DNA from: Lautropia sp. SCN 69-89
GTDB taxonomy: Bacteria > Pseudomonadota > Gammaproteobacteria > Burkholderiales > Burkholderiaceae_E
DNA: 33,880 nucleotides
NCBI GenBank assembly: GCA_001724855.1
Contig: MEED01000006.1
Location: 1 to 33,880, forward strand
Direction: 5' to 3'
Shown here: positions 2,267 to 7,641 of the stretch, in pieces
Layout: each line of letters starts with the position of its first letter
Position numbering within the stretch: position 1 is the first letter of the stretch
Translations under genes and position numbers: made by a program
The notes under the pieces: generated by a model
Seen by the model: the letters and a program-made list of their open reading frames with translations, nothing else
Told to the model about the DNA's origin: nothing
Databases searched by the model: none

Positions 2267-3733
2267 GTGCCGACAGATCCAGAGCGCTTTCGCCCTCACT
2301 TCTTCATCGACGAGCGCATGCGGGTCCGGATCTGGCCCGAGGCCACGGCACGCGCGCTGGGTATTCCGGAGGCTCGCGCCACCGGCCGTCCATGCTGGGA
2401 GCTGTTCGACGGCGCCGGCTGCGGGGCCTGTCGCAGCGATGCGCGCGACGCTTCGCCGGCGAGCCGATGCGCCCGCCTGCCTGCCGCCCAGGGGGAGGGC
2501 GGCTGGCTGGCGTGGTTGCCGCCGGCGCGGATCGCCGGGGGTTCCCCCGGCAGCGCGTTCCATGAGTCGCTGCTGTTGCGTGGTGTGCTGGCCGAATGCC
2601 TGGCGCGTCACTCGCTCGACGAGACGCTGGAGGCGATCCGAGGGGCTTGCGCGGCCGACGACTGCGAACTGTTCCTGCTCGCACCCGGAGGGATGGACGT
2701 CGTTCTCCGTGGCTGTGTGGGCCAGGACCGCACGGCGTTCCTGGAGCGCACGCGGATGCCGCTGGGGATCGGCTACCCAGGATGGATCACTGCCACCGGC
2801 AAGCCCCTGACCACCAACGAGTTCCAGGCGGACCACCGGTTCCAGCGCGAATCGGTCAAGCGCAGCGGTATCCGCACCTTCATCGGGGTCCCGCTGGTCG
2901 AGCATGACCGGGTGATGGGCTATCTGGGGCTCGGCTGGAAGGACGAAGGCATTCCAGTCGATTGGGGCCTGCATCTGCTCGGGGCCGCACACCCGATCGC
3001 GGTCGCCGCTGCGCGCCTTACGCACGGCGCACCGCGGCTGTCCGCACCTCGCGCGCCCACGATCCGCTGCCTGGGGGCGTTCGCGATCGTCGGCCAGGCG
3101 CGGACGCTGGGTGTCGCGGCGTTTCCGCGGCGCAAGGCGCTCGACCTGCTGCGCCACCTGATCCTGGCGCGAGGCACCGCGATGTCGCGCGACGCACTGA
3201 TCGAGCACCTGTGGCCGGAGATCGACCCGGAAAGCGGTGCCAATCGCCTGCACGTGGCCCTGCATGCCTTGCGCGGTGTCCTTCGGCAGGCGCTGCCCGG
3301 CGGGGGCGAAAGCCTGGTCCAGCACCGGCATGGCCACTACCGGATCGACGTCGACGCCCTGGGACCGGTGGACGCCTTCGTGTTCGCCGATGCGCTGGAC
3401 GATGCCCGGCGCCGTGCACGCGAAGACGATCCGGACGGCGCGCTCGGCTGCCTGGAGCAGGCGCTGCCGCTGTACCAGGGCGAGCTGTTCGCCGATGCGG
3501 AAGATGTCGCCTTCGAAGCGCCGCGACAGCGTTTTCGCCATCGCCATCGCGAGGCGCTGCAGCTGCTGGTCGATCTGCATCTGCGCCGTGGCCGGGCCGA
3601 CGCCGCGATCGAAGCCCTGACGCGGGCGCGCGAGTTCACCGTCGTCGACACCGACTGGCACGACGCACTGACGCGCAAGGTCCTCGAACGCGGCCGTCTG
3701 CAGGGCGGGCGCGCAGTCCGCTCACGACCGTAA
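2267..3733 (+). CDS. PAS-GAF-SARP/BTAD transcriptional regulator (488 aa)
   Basis: The protein starts at a GTG. Residues ~10-60 look like a PAS segment containing C43, C52 and C55, with C68 just after. Residues ~100-250 are a GAF-like domain with the motif GIRTFIGVPLVEHDRVMGYL. Residues ~265-360 form an OmpR/SARP winged helix (RRKALDLLRHLILARG, then LIEHLWPEIDPESGANRLHV), and ~365-480 a BTAD helical repeat region. This is a one-component sensor-regulator: GAF and PAS sense a ligand or redox state, and the SARP domain binds DNA. Its 3' end overlaps that of the convergent senC-like gene by 12 bases. It may control the neighbouring oxidase or NO reductase operon, but that is inference; no binding site was identified. 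Confidence 0.8.
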   Translation: MPTDPERFRPHFFIDERMRVRIWPEATARALGIPEARATGRPCWELFDGAGCGACRSDARDASPASRCARLPAAQGEGGWLAWLPPARIAGGSPGSAFHESLLLRGVLAECLARHSLDETLEAIRGACAADDCELFLLAPGGMDVVLRGCVGQDRTAFLERTRMPLGIGYPGWITATGKPLTTNEFQADHRFQRESVKRSGIRTFIGVPLVEHDRVMGYLGLGWKDEGIPVDWGLHLLGAAHPIAVAAARLTHGAPRLSAPRAPTIRCLGAFAIVGQARTLGVAAFPRRKALDLLRHLILARGTAMSRDALIEHLWPEIDPESGANRLHVALHALRGVLRQALPGGGESLVQHRHGHYRIDVDALGPVDAFVFADALDDARRRAREDDPDGALGCLEQALPLYQGELFADAEDVAFEAPRQRFRHRHREALQLLVDLHLRRGRADAAIEALTRAREFTVVDTDWHDALTRKVLERGRLQGGRAVRSRP

Positions 3734-4510
3734 CGCCGCGCCGCGGCGAGACCGCAGCGGCCGGAACAGCGCCATCGCCGCCGCCAGCGAGACCAGCGCT
3801 GGCGCGACCAGCAGCAGCATGCCCCAGTCGAGCCGCAGCGTGCCGGTGCGCGGATCGAAGTCGACGCAGCGCAGCGCCGGGGCGTTGTCGGTCTCGTAAT
3901 AGGGCACGACCCGTCCGCGCAGTTCCCAGACCAGTTCGCGCAGGCGCCGGGTTTGCCCCGGGCCCCCGCTCAGTGCGCGGATCACGCGGCCGTCGCGGAT
4001 GGCCACCAGCAGCGACCCGTGGTCGAACTGGTCGGAATCGGGCTGGCGCCGGTACCAGAACTCCAGCGCGCCGGCGATCTGCGCAAGCGAGTCGCGCCCG
4101 GTCACCGCGAAATGCCAGTTCGCGTTCTCCGACAGTCCGAAGGTGCGCGCCTGGGCCTGCAGGTCGGCGACGGTGTCGGCTTCGTCGAAGCTCAGGGCCA
4201 GCACCCGATAGTCGCTGCCGATGCCGCCGACCTCGACCGTGGCCTCGTCGATCCACTGCAGGAAGGGCGTGCACACGCCGGCGCAGCGTCGGTAGAAGAA
4301 CGTCACCAGCAGCGCTTGTTCGCGCGCCAACTCCGAGAGCATCCGTTCCCGCCCGTCGGCCAGCCGCAACGCGATGTCCGGCACCGCGCGGCCCTCGATG
4401 CGCGCCTCGGCGCGGGTCGCCGGCAGCAGCGGTGCCTGCGCCGCCGCGGGCGCGGCGGCCAGGACGGGCAGTCCGACGAGCAGCGCCGCGGCGAGCCCGC
4501 GCAGGCTCAT
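3722..4510 (-). CDS. SCO1/SenC-family copper chaperone with C-terminal membrane anchor
   Basis: A cleavable-looking signal peptide (first ~25 residues, ending AAPAAAQA) precedes a thioredoxin-like SCO domain. Copper ligands are visible as C76-x3-C80 (RRCAGVCTP) and H164 in QFDHGSLLVA. SCO proteins load copper into the CuA or CuB centre of heme-copper enzymes. After the SCO domain there is an extra ~60 residues with a hydrophobic helix (LLLVAPALVSLAAAMALF), which would anchor the protein; this tail is longer than in ordinary SCO proteins. It is the last gene of a leftward operon, overlapping the stop of subunit I by four bases (ATGA), so its product very likely matures the CuA of the subunit II encoded two genes upstream. 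Confidence 0.88.
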   Translation of the reverse strand: MSLRGLAAALLVGLPVLAAAPAAAQAPLLPATRAEARIEGRAVPDIALRLADGRERMLSELAREQALLVTFFYRRCAGVCTPFLQWIDEATVEVGGIGSDYRVLALSFDEADTVADLQAQARTFGLSENANWHFAVTGRDSLAQIAGALEFWYRRQPDSDQFDHGSLLVAIRDGRVIRALSGGPGQTRRLRELVWELRGRVVPYYETDNAPALRCVDFDPRTGTLRLDWGMLLLVAPALVSLAAAMALFRPLRSRRGAALRS

Positions 4511-5946
4511 CCTGCGAACGCCCGCCACCAGCGCCGGCCGGTTTCGCCGAGGTACAGCACAAAGCCGAGCAGGAACAGCAGCGCGAACAGCATGCCCCAG
4601 AATGCGTAGCCGGCGCCGTGTGCCAGTTCGGCCGGGTACAGCGCGAAGCGGCGCGGGATCGAGTAGGCGCCGGCGAGGTAGAACATCAGGAACACACCAT
4701 AGGCGCCGAAGGTCATCGTCAGCGCCGAGGCGCGCTGCAGGAGCTGGTTCTCGGGCAGCCCCGTGGCGTTCTGGCAGACGTGGTGGAAGTAGGCCAGCAC
4801 CAGGAAGGCCAGTCCGGCCAGGTTGTAGGTGTGGAAGTGCGCCGGCACCCACAGCGTGTTGTGCAGCCGCACGTTGACGCTGATGATCGAGTCGATCAGC
4901 GCGCCGATGCCGCCGATCGCCCAGCCCGCCAGGCCCAGGAACAGCAGGATCGAGGTCATGTTCCAGCGCATGCGCGCGTGGAACACCAGCAGCAGTGCGC
5001 CGAACAGCGTCACCACCGACGACGGGATCGCGCTGGCATACGAGGCGATCTGTCCGATGTACTGCAGCGCGCCGGGCTGCACGAAGTCCATGTACAGGTG
5101 GTGAAAATAGGCGAGCAGCACGATCAGCAGCACCGCGTTCCAGGCGATCGCGACGATCCGGTTGTTCTTCCAGGGCCGCCCCGCGTAGTGCGGCAGGATC
5201 TCGTAGGCGGCGGCCACGCCCAGGTACATGGCGAGGTTGATGATGGTGTGGCCGAAGAAGAAGGTGAGGTTCTTCATCAGCAGCGGATCGTTGGCGACGC
5301 CGGCGAACATCTCGGCGAAGAACAGCACCATCAGGATGACTGCCGACACCAGCGCCGCCACCCCCGAAATCAGGCTCACGGTGGCGATCAGCACGGCCGG
5401 CGGCACCGCCGGTTCGCTGCGCCCGGCAATGTAGTGCCAGCCCAGCGCCTGCGCCAGCGGGTAGCGGCGGGCGATCGCCCGCAACAGGTCCAGCGTCCAG
5501 ACCAGCCACGCCGCGCCGAGTACCGTCAGCGAGAGCAGGAACACCAGGTTCGACCAGGCCGGCCACTCGCCCTTGAACGGCAGCGGGTAGAGGAAGTACC
5601 AGCCGGCCGCGTACCGGCCGAGGAGCACGCTGGCCAGCAGCAGCACCACGCCGATCACCGTGCCCCAGAGCGCGAAGCCGGCAACCGCCGGCGAGAGCTG
5701 CACGTAGCGGGTGAGCAGGTCGGCCACGATGGCCATCGAGGCCACGTACCAGACGCCGACCATGCCGACGCCGTGCAGGGTCATCGCCGGATAGAACCAG
5801 GCTTCGAAGCTCGACAGCACGCCGCCCTGCACCGAGCGCATGAAGGCGCCGAGCAGGATCAGGATCGGGAACAGCACGAATACCACCGGTATCCAGCGCA
5901 GGGTCTGGCGGTTGGCCGCTTGCATGGTCTGCGTCTCCTGTGTCAT
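4507..5946 (-). CDS. Heme-copper oxidase superfamily subunit I without the active-site tyrosine; candidate sNOR-type NO reductase
   Basis: This polytopic protein (479 aa, about 12 membrane helices) carries all metal-ligand histidines: H58 (TLHGVGM, low-spin heme), H233 (CuB), H282-H283 (AYFHHLY, CuB), H370 and H372 (AHFHTYN, hemes). In O2-reducing A- and B-type oxidases the CuB histidine motif is HPEVY or HPIVY, and its Tyr is cross-linked. Here it reads HTIIN, with N237 in place of Tyr. The cbb3-type helix VII tyrosine is also not in its usual place, though Y280 lies two residues before H282. Loss of this tyrosine marks NO-reducing members of the superfamily. The order CuA subunit II - subunit I - SenC matches the norS-norY-senC arrangement reported in ammonia oxidisers. 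A second start at 5925 has a better Shine-Dalgarno (AGGAG, nine bases). An O2-reducing role cannot be excluded. Confidence 0.82.
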   Translation of the reverse strand: MTQETQTMQAANRQTLRWIPVVFVLFPILILLGAFMRSVQGGVLSSFEAWFYPAMTLHGVGMVGVWYVASMAIVADLLTRYVQLSPAVAGFALWGTVIGVVLLLASVLLGRYAAGWYFLYPLPFKGEWPAWSNLVFLLSLTVLGAAWLVWTLDLLRAIARRYPLAQALGWHYIAGRSEPAVPPAVLIATVSLISGVAALVSAVILMVLFFAEMFAGVANDPLLMKNLTFFFGHTIINLAMYLGVAAAYEILPHYAGRPWKNNRIVAIAWNAVLLIVLLAYFHHLYMDFVQPGALQYIGQIASYASAIPSSVVTLFGALLLVFHARMRWNMTSILLFLGLAGWAIGGIGALIDSIISVNVRLHNTLWVPAHFHTYNLAGLAFLVLAYFHHVCQNATGLPENQLLQRASALTMTFGAYGVFLMFYLAGAYSIPRRFALYPAELAHGAGYAFWGMLFALLFLLGFVLYLGETGRRWWRAFAG

Positions 5947-5951
5947 GGCGC

Positions 5952-6932
5952 TCACCGGACCGTGAGGCTGCTGCGCATGCGGTGGTGGCCCGCGGCGCAA
6001 TACTCGAGGCACAGCACGGGGTACTCGCCGGGCGCATCGAGTCGTACCCGCAGGCGGTTGACATAGCCGGGCATGGCCTGGGTCTGCGCCACGATCTGGC
6101 GCTGCGGCCCGTACAGGCCGAAGCCATGGGTGACGTCGAGGCTGGTGACGCGGAACTCCACCGTCGCGCCGGGGGCGATCGCCACCTGATGCAGGCGCGG
6201 CACGCGGCCGACGTCTTCGGCGCGGACGATCGGCTCGTCGGACCAGATGAACTCGAACTGGCGCGCGGCCACGTAGATGATGCGGTCGACTCCGGCTGCG
6301 GCGGCGCTGACGTCCGCTGCGTAGGGTGTCCTGGGCAAGGTCGTCGCCAGCACGCCGATGGCCGCGACCATCGCCGACAGGAACAGCACCTTGCGCAGCC
6401 CGTAGGCGCGCGCGACGCTGACCTCGCGCGGACGCGCCGTGCTGAGGGCGACGCCGGCAAACACCACGACGATCACCGCGCTGATCAAGAGGAACACGTG
6501 CCAGACCCGCGCCTGCGACGGCATCATCTCGGGCCTGGCGTAGACCACCGCGGGCGCCGCCGAGGCGACGGTGCCGGCGGCGACTTCGTGCAGGTGGGCA
6601 ACGAGCGCCTCGACCTGGCCTGCTTCGAGCCCGAGCCTGGGCATGACGAGGCCCTTGTAGCGCTCGACGAGCTTGGTCACCACCGGATCGCCCTCGGCGA
6701 TCAGCGCATCGGGTTCGCCGATCATCCGCTTCAGCCACGCATCGTCGCGGCGCTGGGTGACGCCGGCCAGGTCGGGGCCGACACGGTCGCCGCCGCCCAC
6801 GCTGTGGCAGGCCACGCACATCTGCTCGAACAGCGCGCGTCCCTGCTCGGCAGGCGTCTGCGCGGAAGCCGCGCCAGCCAGCACCAGGCACGCGAGGATG
6901 CCGAAGAACCAGTTCAGTTGACGGGTCAGCAC
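5952..6932 (-). CDS. Cytochrome c-CuA fusion, subunit II of the heme-copper complex
   Basis: Numbering is from the TTG at 6938; the GTG at 6932, spaced seven bases from a GAGGG, is the more likely start. A signal peptide is followed by a class I cytochrome c domain (C41-x2-C44-H45, CVACHSVGGG; candidate ligand M99 in LVMPRLGL). Two membrane helices follow (about 146-166 and 183-200), then a cupredoxin domain with a complete CuA site: H271 (VTHGFG), C310, E312, C314, H318 and M321 (CLEYCAAGHHRM). The cytochrome is N-terminal, whereas caa3 oxidases carry it C-terminally. The protein would accept electrons from a periplasmic donor and pass them via heme c and CuA to subunit I, whose start lies five bases downstream. 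Confidence 0.88.
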   Translation of the reverse strand: MLTRQLNWFFGILACLVLAGAASAQTPAEQGRALFEQMCVACHSVGGGDRVGPDLAGVTQRRDDAWLKRMIGEPDALIAEGDPVVTKLVERYKGLVMPRLGLEAGQVEALVAHLHEVAAGTVASAAPAVVYARPEMMPSQARVWHVFLLISAVIVVVFAGVALSTARPREVSVARAYGLRKVLFLSAMVAAIGVLATTLPRTPYAADVSAAAAGVDRIIYVAARQFEFIWSDEPIVRAEDVGRVPRLHQVAIAPGATVEFRVTSLDVTHGFGLYGPQRQIVAQTQAMPGYVNRLRVRLDAPGEYPVLCLEYCAAGHHRMRSSLTVR

Positions 6933-7070
6933 GCGCAAGCCCTCATGTCGGTCGGTCCGCGCGAAGTCTCCCGGAACGCTCTTACCGGGGAATTACAGAT
7001 GCGGGTGTGCGACCGTCTCGCGTGACCCGGGGAGTGGGGTAGGTCGCTGGCGATTCACGATGCTCGGCCG

Positions 7071-7152: not shown

Positions 7153-7174
7153 TATATTGCTAGCATGCAATATA
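7153..7174. promoter_or_regulatory. Palindrome over the start of the DUF6516 remnant
   Basis: TATATTGC and GCAATATA form a perfect 8-bp inverted repeat with a six-base centre, and the right arm overlaps the ATG at 7165. The left arm contains a -10-like TATATT exactly six bases before that ATG, so a transcript starting there would be leaderless. I see no good -35 element. Most likely it is the autoregulatory operator of the TA module. Confidence 0.5.
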
Positions 7175-7282
7175 AGAGTGCCTTGCTGATCGCGCAGGCC
7201 AAGGAGGTTCGCGACGACGGCTCGATCGTCGATCGACCAATTGCTCGAAGACTTCCGATCGGACGTCGAGCGGTGGGATTGA
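7165..7282 (+). pseudogene. Collapsed DUF6516-type toxin
   Basis: The first 23 codons (MQYKSALLIAQAKEVRDDGS plus IVD) look like the N-terminus of DUF6516-family proteins. Shifting one frame at about 7232 gives IDQLLEDFRSDVERWD followed by TGA at 7280-7282, which looks like the C-terminus of the same family. A normal member has roughly 110 codons, so the central two thirds is missing. The junction carries TCGATCG twice in tandem (7222-7235). DUF6516 genes usually precede an HVO_A0114-type regulator, as here. The product should be non-functional. Confidence 0.6.
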
Positions 7283-7284
7283 AC

Positions 7285-7641
7285 ATGAAGGCGATCATCG
7301 AAGTGTCCGCACGCGGCTCGGTCTTCCGGAACGCGGCCCGGCAAGTTCATGCTGCGCGAAAAGGGCGCGCTGCGGCAGACTTTCGCCTCAGCTTCGAATC
7401 TGCCCGTTCGCTGTTCGCCGACCTGACCCCCGCGCGACTCGATCTGCTCGGCACGCTCAGGCGCGTTGGCCCCTGCAGCGTCTACGCCCTTGCCAAGGCT
7501 GCGGGCCGCAACTACTCGAACGTGCACACGGACGCGTCGCGACTCGAGGAACTGGGCCTGGTCGAACGCTCGGACGACGGCAATGTCTCGGTACCGTTCG
7601 AGTCCGTCGAAATCCTGGTTCCGCTTCCGCAGGTCGCATAG
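7285..7641 (+). CDS. HVO_A0114-type (COG4190) winged-helix regulator, probable antitoxin partner
   Basis: The 118-residue protein starts MKAIIEVSARGSVFRNAARQ. After a linker it contains LSFESARSLFADLTPARLDL and the winged helix (LLGTLRRVGPCSVYALAKAA, then NYSNVHTDASRLEELGLVER), the hallmark sequence of this MarR-like family. These proteins are commonly encoded just downstream of DUF6516 genes. Translation could also continue in the frame of the broken toxin start at 7165, giving an odd N-terminal extension; the ATG at 7285 matches the family start. It probably still binds the palindrome at 7153-7174. Confidence 0.75.
   Translation: MKAIIEVSARGSVFRNAARQVHAARKGRAAADFRLSFESARSLFADLTPARLDLLGTLRRVGPCSVYALAKAAGRNYSNVHTDASRLEELGLVERSDDGNVSVPFESVEILVPLPQVA

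Follow-up and report, generated by a model that had tools for sequence, protein, structure and literature searches.

The residue that stands at the place of the active-site cross-linked tyrosine differs between the branches of the heme-copper superfamily. Table A4 of PMC8756737 gives it as Tyr in the O2 reductases, Asn in sNOR and CuANOR, Gln in eNOR, Asp in gNOR and Glu in cNOR and qNOR. CuANOR, now called bNOR, is counted in PMC11388526 as biochemically characterised, and is described there as related to the B-family oxidases and reported from Bacillota only. The role of sNOR in nature, in the reduction of nitric oxide (NO) or of O2, is presented as debated in PMC6967387, which cites indirect evidence of NO reduction by the enzyme of Nitrococcus mobilis. 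An operon that bears on this debate is found in Lautropia sp. SCN 69-89, on contig MEED01000006.1. The whole contig of 33,880 nucleotides was analysed and is referred to below as the window; the assembly to which it belongs (G000) comprises 3.8 Mb in 70 contigs, and L-numbers denote compared loci. Three closely packed genes on the minus strand, to which all operon coordinates refer, follow the order subunit II, subunit I, SCO/SenC. They most probably encode a cytochrome c-fed NO reductase of the sNOR kind serving denitrification, because the tyrosine is replaced by Asn throughout the family, the Asn-type proteins form a fully supported clade, the closest relatives co-occur with nitrite reductases and a neighbouring regulator is homologous to DnrS of Thermus. 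A sequence-only reading of the window had proposed an NO reductase of the sNOR type or else a divergent oxidase; the fused cytochrome c, the nitrite reductase tie of the subgroup that has it and the DnrS-type regulator are additions to that account. This subgroup, with its NirS or NirK and its regulator, offers a clean test case for the debated role.

Loss of the tyrosine and the kind of enzyme

Subunit I (4507–5946; 479 amino acids from the ATG at 5946) is a NorY-like member of the COX1 family (Pfam 159.9 bits, cut-off 34.8); among the NCBIfam models it matches those of oxidases only, all far under cut-off. In the translation from this ATG, H58, H233, H282, H283, H370, H372, N237 and Y280 each lie where the sequence-only reading had placed them. 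We take H58, H370 and H372 to be the ligands of the low-spin heme, and H233 with the His pair H282-H283 (5098–5103) to form the heme/CuB centre, assignments to which alignment also points. The central claim of that reading was that the HPEVY motif of oxidases is replaced by HTIIN (H233–N237; 5236–5250), with Asn237 at the place of the cross-linked Tyr. This is borne out by all 79 aligned family members, each of which has Asn there. The helix-VII Tyr of cbb3 oxidases, also said to be missing from its usual position, is indeed absent. This position lies six residues ahead of the HH pair, where CcoN of the same genome carries a Tyr that is presumably the cross-linked one of cbb3 enzymes; the window has Val276 there, and the 79 sequences have V, I or F throughout.

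The homologues were found by a peptide-pattern scan of an 84,980-species collection, which yielded 150 relatives. The best 80 were kept, and 78 of these were aligned with the window, L032 and L040 being excluded for their broken frames. Besides N237, the residues Y241, Y248, Y280, F281, H282, H283, H362, H370, H372 and Y374 are invariant in the 79 sequences, whilst H233 and H58 are each found in 78, one row having R at the former and one being gapped at the latter. In a second alignment of 38 rows (35 from the family, a Ruegeria homologue and two from genomes with ammonia monooxygenase, AMO), N237, Y241, Y248 and Y374 are again invariant and Y280 is present in at least 90%. Asn also occupies the Tyr place in L089, L115 and L116. 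Since N237 is invariant across both alignments, the missing Tyr is a fixed feature of the family, and the recurrence of the same residues in 79 of 79 sequences means that Asn237 is not a product of chance or of sequencing error. As a separate observation, L040, a metagenome-assembled genome 96% identical to the window, shows broken frames in each of the two subunits, perhaps through sequencing errors.

Reference sequences for sNOR were sought in 12 AMO-bearing genomes, recognised by their AMO, among 399 genomes of the same order. In two of the 12 a subunit I match was found, at 37–38% identity and with Asn at the Tyr place. In one of them (L115) the genes are ordered CuA subunit, subunit I, SCO, and in the other (L116) a SCO gene was recovered by neighbour clustering. 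A megaplasmid of Ruegeria pomeroyi carries a 39.5% match together with a CuA subunit and a SCO gene, and L089 has the same order as the window. The sequence-only reading had likened the order CuA subunit II, subunit I, SenC to that of the sNOR genes of ammonia oxidisers; the window does have it, and L115 shares it.

Two trees were built, a quick tree of 39 of the 79 family rows (<70% mutual identity) with 30 references, and a second thinned to 49 rows, with Thermus ba3 added as the single B-type row; bNOR and nNOR sequences are in neither. In the second tree an Asn-type clade (support 100/100) from which the sampled oxidases are excluded unites the window family with the Ruegeria homologue and the two AMO-genome NorY-like proteins. 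Within this clade the window family (99/93) is sister to a group of AMO-genome, Ruegeria and Thermomicrobium sequences (98/82) and is not nested in it. The quick tree is concordant, with support of 100 for the Asn-type clade and of 88 and 87 for the two groups. cNOR and qNOR form a separate clade in the second tree. The ba3 row groups with a Gln-type gene of the window's own genome, which was flagged as a meeting of long branches, and nothing is drawn from its placement. The tree that the sequence-only reading had proposed as a check thus places subunit I, among the kinds sampled, outside the oxidases and with NorY-like proteins of AMO genomes.

The window agrees with sNOR in this grouping, in the Asn at the Tyr place, in its CuA subunit II and in the senC/SCO gene of the operon. 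Asn237 sets it apart from eNOR (Gln), from gNOR (Asp) and from cNOR and qNOR (Glu, with a NorB-type subunit I), and with N237 and V276 it lacks the cross-linked Tyr of helix VI or VII that marks the A-, B- and C-type O2 reductases. Judged by sequence, sNOR is the closest named kind, with the window family as sister to the references, and the label first given to the operon stands. The likeness to the sNOR of ammonia oxidisers and to the Ruegeria homologue includes Tyr241, Tyr248 and Tyr374 as well as the CuA subunit before and the SCO gene after subunit I, but subunit I of the window is about 35–37% identical to these references in the alignment and 37–40% in local matches. The bNOR of Bacillus, compared by its description only, also has Asn at the Tyr place (PMC8756737). 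A Methylomirabilis genome holds 11 COX1-family matches, six of which had their motif read; among the six, L135 is the only Asn-type protein and belongs to the window family, another, L127, is Asp-type, and the weak matches L137–L141 are left unclassified. As PMC8906906 states that Methylomirabilis carries sNOR (norSY) and gNOR, the name sNOR is probably already in use for the wider family that includes the window. Because NCBIfam provides oxidase matches only and sNOR is labelled coxA in KEGG (PMC11388526), surveys of nitrous oxide (N2O) sources may overlook such genes or take them for aerobic respiration.

A divergent high-affinity O2 reductase, working at low O2 or under NO with Tyr241, Tyr280, Tyr374 or a radical at some other site in place of the lost Tyr, has to be considered alongside an NO reductase. 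An oxidase role has been proposed in PMC6967387 for the sNOR of N. europaea, whose genes rise 2.7–10.8-fold under O2 limitation. The three tyrosines are identical in 79 of 79 sequences, and the AlphaFold2 model of subunit I (mean pLDDT, the predicted local distance difference test, 85.7) has a heme-copper oxidase fold, with bo3, aa3 and ba3 oxidases as its best matches in the PDB and oxidases throughout the best 50 shown. Nevertheless, none of the 79 has a Tyr at either the A/B-type or the C-type cross-link place, the window's own genome already encodes aa3, cbb3 and cbb3-like subunits I, and the fusion group described below co-occurs with NirS/NirK; an O2 reductase appears improbable. Tyr280 had been entered as a caveat by the sequence-only reading. 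It does lie two residues before H282, and so ahead of the HH pair, but this is the place of a Trp in A-type oxidases and not the cbb3 place, and in one of the two AMO-genome NorY proteins the residue is Phe. Tyr280 is accordingly not supported as a stand-in for the lost Tyr, and the caveat does not seem to overturn the sNOR-type label.

Position 313 in helix VIII is Thr or Ser in 79 of 79 sequences and aligns with a Lys of the own-genome aa3 oxidase, which we take to be the K-channel Lys. Given this placement and the fixed Tyr248, a K-like proton path in subunit I is possible. For comparison, sNOR is described as being without a proton channel in PMC8756737 and as electrogenic in PMC8906906.

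A cytochrome c joined to the CuA subunit

The NorS-like subunit II (5952–6938; 328 amino acids) has an ambiguous start, either TTG at 6938 or GTG at 6932. Its CuA cupredoxin part bears the motif CLEYCAAGHHRM at residues 310–321 (5976–6011) and scores 20.6 bits against Pfam COX2, just under the cut-off of 22; a match to TIGR02866 (E 6.8e-18) is likewise under its curated cut-off. The N-terminus is a clear cytochrome c (Pfam Cytochrom_C, PF00034, residues 30–118, 35.9 bits against a cut-off of 21.3; 6585–6851), with CXXCH at residue 41, and was absent from the sequence-only account. The third gene of the operon (3722–4510) encodes a SCO1/SenC-family protein, likely a copper chaperone (PF02630, 27.1 bits, cut-off 22.8).

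An N-terminal cytochrome c with CXXCH is carried on the CuA subunit, in intact frames, by the window and by 22 further loci, which are also the top scorers against the window. In L040 the cytochrome c and CuA parts are split by the frame breaks, bringing the fusion loci to 24 with the window included. Elsewhere in the family, where a CuA motif lies upstream, the CuA subunit measures about 167–248 amino acids and has no CXXCH; no CuA frame was seen upstream of subunit I in L055, L063, L077 and L082. The sNOR and Ruegeria references differ from the window in the same respect, with subunit II frames of 169–181 amino acids that lack an N-terminal cytochrome c. They also have, in common with 23 non-fusion family loci, a small membrane protein found in no fusion locus. 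In the second tree the six fusion rows group together as a single clade (100/99), so that one origin of the fusion is probable. A cytochrome c is joined to the CuA subunit in caa3-type oxidases as well, albeit at the C-terminus; the window differs in having it at the N-terminus and in lacking the active-site Tyr. No description of an N-terminal cytochrome c on a NOR CuA subunit II was found in the literature searched, which did not cover Murali et al. 2024.

What the analysis shows directly is the anatomy of the sequences, their conservation and place in the tree, the co-occurrence with nitrite reductase genes, the homology of the regulator and the position of the repeat. From these we infer which substrate is used, how electrons and protons travel, how the metal is loaded, and what the regulator senses and binds. 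Electrons would enter at the fused cytochrome c and pass by way of CuA and the low-spin heme to the heme/CuB centre of subunit I, where two NO would be converted to N2O. As Asn replaces the cross-linked Tyr, the usual source of the fourth electron and the proton for the splitting of O2 would be lacking, whereas the reduction of NO demands only two electrons. The SCO protein would supply copper to CuA. The DnrS-like regulator, perhaps by means of a Cys-bound redox centre, would detect low O2 or NO and turn the operon on via 11-bp repeats upstream of it.

Nitrite reductases and a probable role in denitrification

Nitrite reductase genes were scanned for in 51 genomes, the window's own and those of L009–L058 (50 of the 80 loci). 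A NirS-type gene, counted where PF02239 matched at E <1e-90 (at E 0.001, 33 of the 51 genomes match), is present in 18 of 24 fusion genomes compared with two of 27 others (p 6e-7). NirK over its cut-off adds three fusion genomes and one of the others, the last with an internal stop, so that one or other gene is found in 21/24 fusion versus 3/27 non-fusion genomes (p 3e-8). The tie also appears against the 399 genomes of the same order, in which the d1 domain was counted at E <1e-60: NirS-type genes are found in 103 of these and in 12 of the 14 proteobacterial fusion genomes (p 7e-6). A subunit I match (E 1e-50) occurs in nine of the 399, the eight others being 37–40% identical; three of the nine had their motif read. 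A NirS-type gene and NosZ are both present in the window's own genome, in which no NirK scores over cut-off.

Neighbouring frames within 7 kb were clustered for 84 loci, the counts being lower bounds because of short contigs. Types were named from one representative each, NarG and NarH from L011 and the larger SCO type from its similarity to the window protein. SCO-like types are found in at least 58 and 26 loci and a formate/nitrite transporter in 18, eight of which are fusion loci. Further types are RIC/ScdA (11 loci), Rrf2 (10), DUF488 (six), qNOR (five, including the fusion loci L023 and L026), and NarG, NarH and DUF2249/DUF1858 (four each). The RIC/ScdA and Rrf2 genes lie near non-fusion members, in Bacteroidota-type records, and would suit an NO reductase engaged in detoxification rather than in energy-conserving respiration, the same chemistry in another role. 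No fusion locus has either gene, however, half of the fusion group has a DnrS-like regulator and most of it a NirS-type gene, and the upstream repeat recurs in one relative ahead of a cytochrome c-narGH operon. Detoxification is on this evidence an unlikely role for the operon.

A number of points weigh against a denitrifying NO reductase of the sNOR kind. PF02239 cannot separate NirS from close paralogues, and the p values given above are too small, since the genomes counted are related. The 3/27 figure shows how rarely non-fusion members co-occur with NirS/NirK, and for NosZ the trend is reversed, at 7/24 fusion versus 14/27 non-fusion genomes. The absence of RIC and Rrf2 from the fusion loci can be counted here too, as can the argument that the sNOR of N. 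europaea is a possible high-affinity oxidase. Next to the NorB-like and eNOR-like genes that the window's own genome contains, one more NO reductase may be redundant. Finally, with Tyr241, Tyr280 and Tyr374 all conserved and with the model of subunit I weak at residues 281–290 and 351–370, a new cross-link may be possible.

Other superfamily members of the same genome were also noted. The eNOR-like gene (L117; G000:C22:75544-76833, minus strand) reads GHSSQQ, with Gln at the Tyr place, and an adjoining frame of 179 amino acids resembles subunit II by eye. About 4 kb from it, a COX1-family gene (L117:6850-8271, minus strand; G000:C22:69966-71162; 57.4 bits) has no CuB His pair. The NorB-like gene (L119; G000:C18:85807-87138, plus strand) encodes a NorB cytochrome c-like domain and groups with L130 of Methylomirabilis, both reading SHNFYW. 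The His-to-Asn change at this place is, we assume, a mark of NO dismutase, which makes L119 a Nod-like candidate.

A DnrS-like regulator and the upstream repeat

Convergent with the SCO gene lies a regulator gene (2267–3733, plus strand) encoding an N-terminal region that bears the conserved Cys 43, 52, 55 and 68, followed by GAF, OmpR-type helix-turn-helix (HTH) and BTAD domains. It adjoins the operon in 12 of the 24 fusion loci (the window and 11 others), and a partial, weaker match is found in L083. Cys 43, 52, 55, 68, 133, 150 and 268 are identical in 12/12, and their spacing suggests an iron-sulphur cluster. Among plasmid records the regulator has 20 matches, 16 from Thermus, three from Deinococcus and one from Nonomuraea. 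The best Thermus record (E 4e-13) is 32% identical across 78% of the window regulator, whilst most of the others from this genus align over 39% (residues 37–226 only). In two Thermus records the DnrS-like gene adjoins genes for nitrate reductase and a c-type cytochrome, and a Crp/Fnr gene comes next after the DnrS-like gene. These neighbours match the description of Thermus DnrS, an O2-sensitive regulator required for expression of nar, nir and nor, and of its partner DnrT (PMC5748679, PMC6282519). With its GAF and BTAD domains and its homology to the Thermus gene beside nar, the window regulator qualifies as DnrS-like. Cys 43, 52 and 55 align with DnrS of Thermus thermophilus, but the fourth Cys does not line up in this alignment. 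In the literature searched, BTAD regulators in denitrification are described for Thermus only.

A TGTAAG-like direct repeat with an 11-bp period lies upstream of subunit II, in the window as TGTAAT-N5-GGTAAG (6981–6997, minus strand). SARP-type regulators often bind such direct repeats, and this one is a candidate site of the DnrS-like regulator. The strict repeat is found in nine of 12 fusion loci with the regulator and in one of 12 without it (p 0.003), with imperfect copies visible by eye in L012, L034 and L044. Across the 23 fetched fusion loci, both strands counted, there are nine copies of the strict form, all at the operon promoter. The pattern YGTAAKNNNNNKGTAAG occurs once in the 3.8-Mb assembly of the window, at 6981–6997, and 10 of its 18 matches across 13 genomes sit at the operon. 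In the L011 genome one match lies ahead of a cytochrome c gene, after which come narG (clipped by the locus end and below cut-off) and narH (above cut-off); the cytochrome c encoded there shares 50% identity, over 103 residues, with the fused cytochrome c of the window. The remaining seven matches, among which no common theme was seen, include sites before acyl-CoA synthetase-like (L150) and solute symporter-like (L162) genes, named from reading alone.

It is conceivable instead that operon and regulator are mere neighbours and that the repeat simply belongs to the promoter of the operon. In L017 the repeat is present although no regulator was seen on the 8.4-kb contig, the 18 matches compare with 11 for a reversed control, so that the pattern is hardly enriched genome-wide, and the intergenic region between nar and dnr in Thermus shows no TGTAAG-like repeat by eye. 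The association of the repeat with the regulator and the share of matches at the operon both speak for a link, and its absence seems somewhat unlikely. Two further elements upstream of the operon were considered. The pair GGACAAGTCC/GGACGAGTCC (7103–7094 and 7082–7073; GGACRAGTCC, 21 bp apart) was rejected as a regulator site, being found in none of 23 related upstream regions, and an FNR-type box occurs in only one of the 23 (L020).

Beyond the enzyme itself, a distinct denitrification module may be envisaged, namely a sister lineage of sNOR with its own cytochrome c on CuA that accompanies nitrite reductases across several phyla and that, within Proteobacteria, is under DnrS-type control via the 11-bp repeats. 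This wider proposal is a tentative one, its chances being slightly below even.

Some other genes of the window may be mentioned. An HVO_A0114/MarR-like HTH gene (7165–7641, plus strand) has its ATG within the palindrome-like TTGCATGCTAGCAA and perhaps regulates itself. An addiction-module component (1022–1264) and a PIN-domain protein (1681–2100), both on the plus strand, are probably toxin-antitoxin parts at the contig start. At 15.4–17.1 kb a DUF1924 cytochrome c is encoded together with a cytochrome b561-like protein, a pair presumably of a heme protein type that binds small ligands such as NO.

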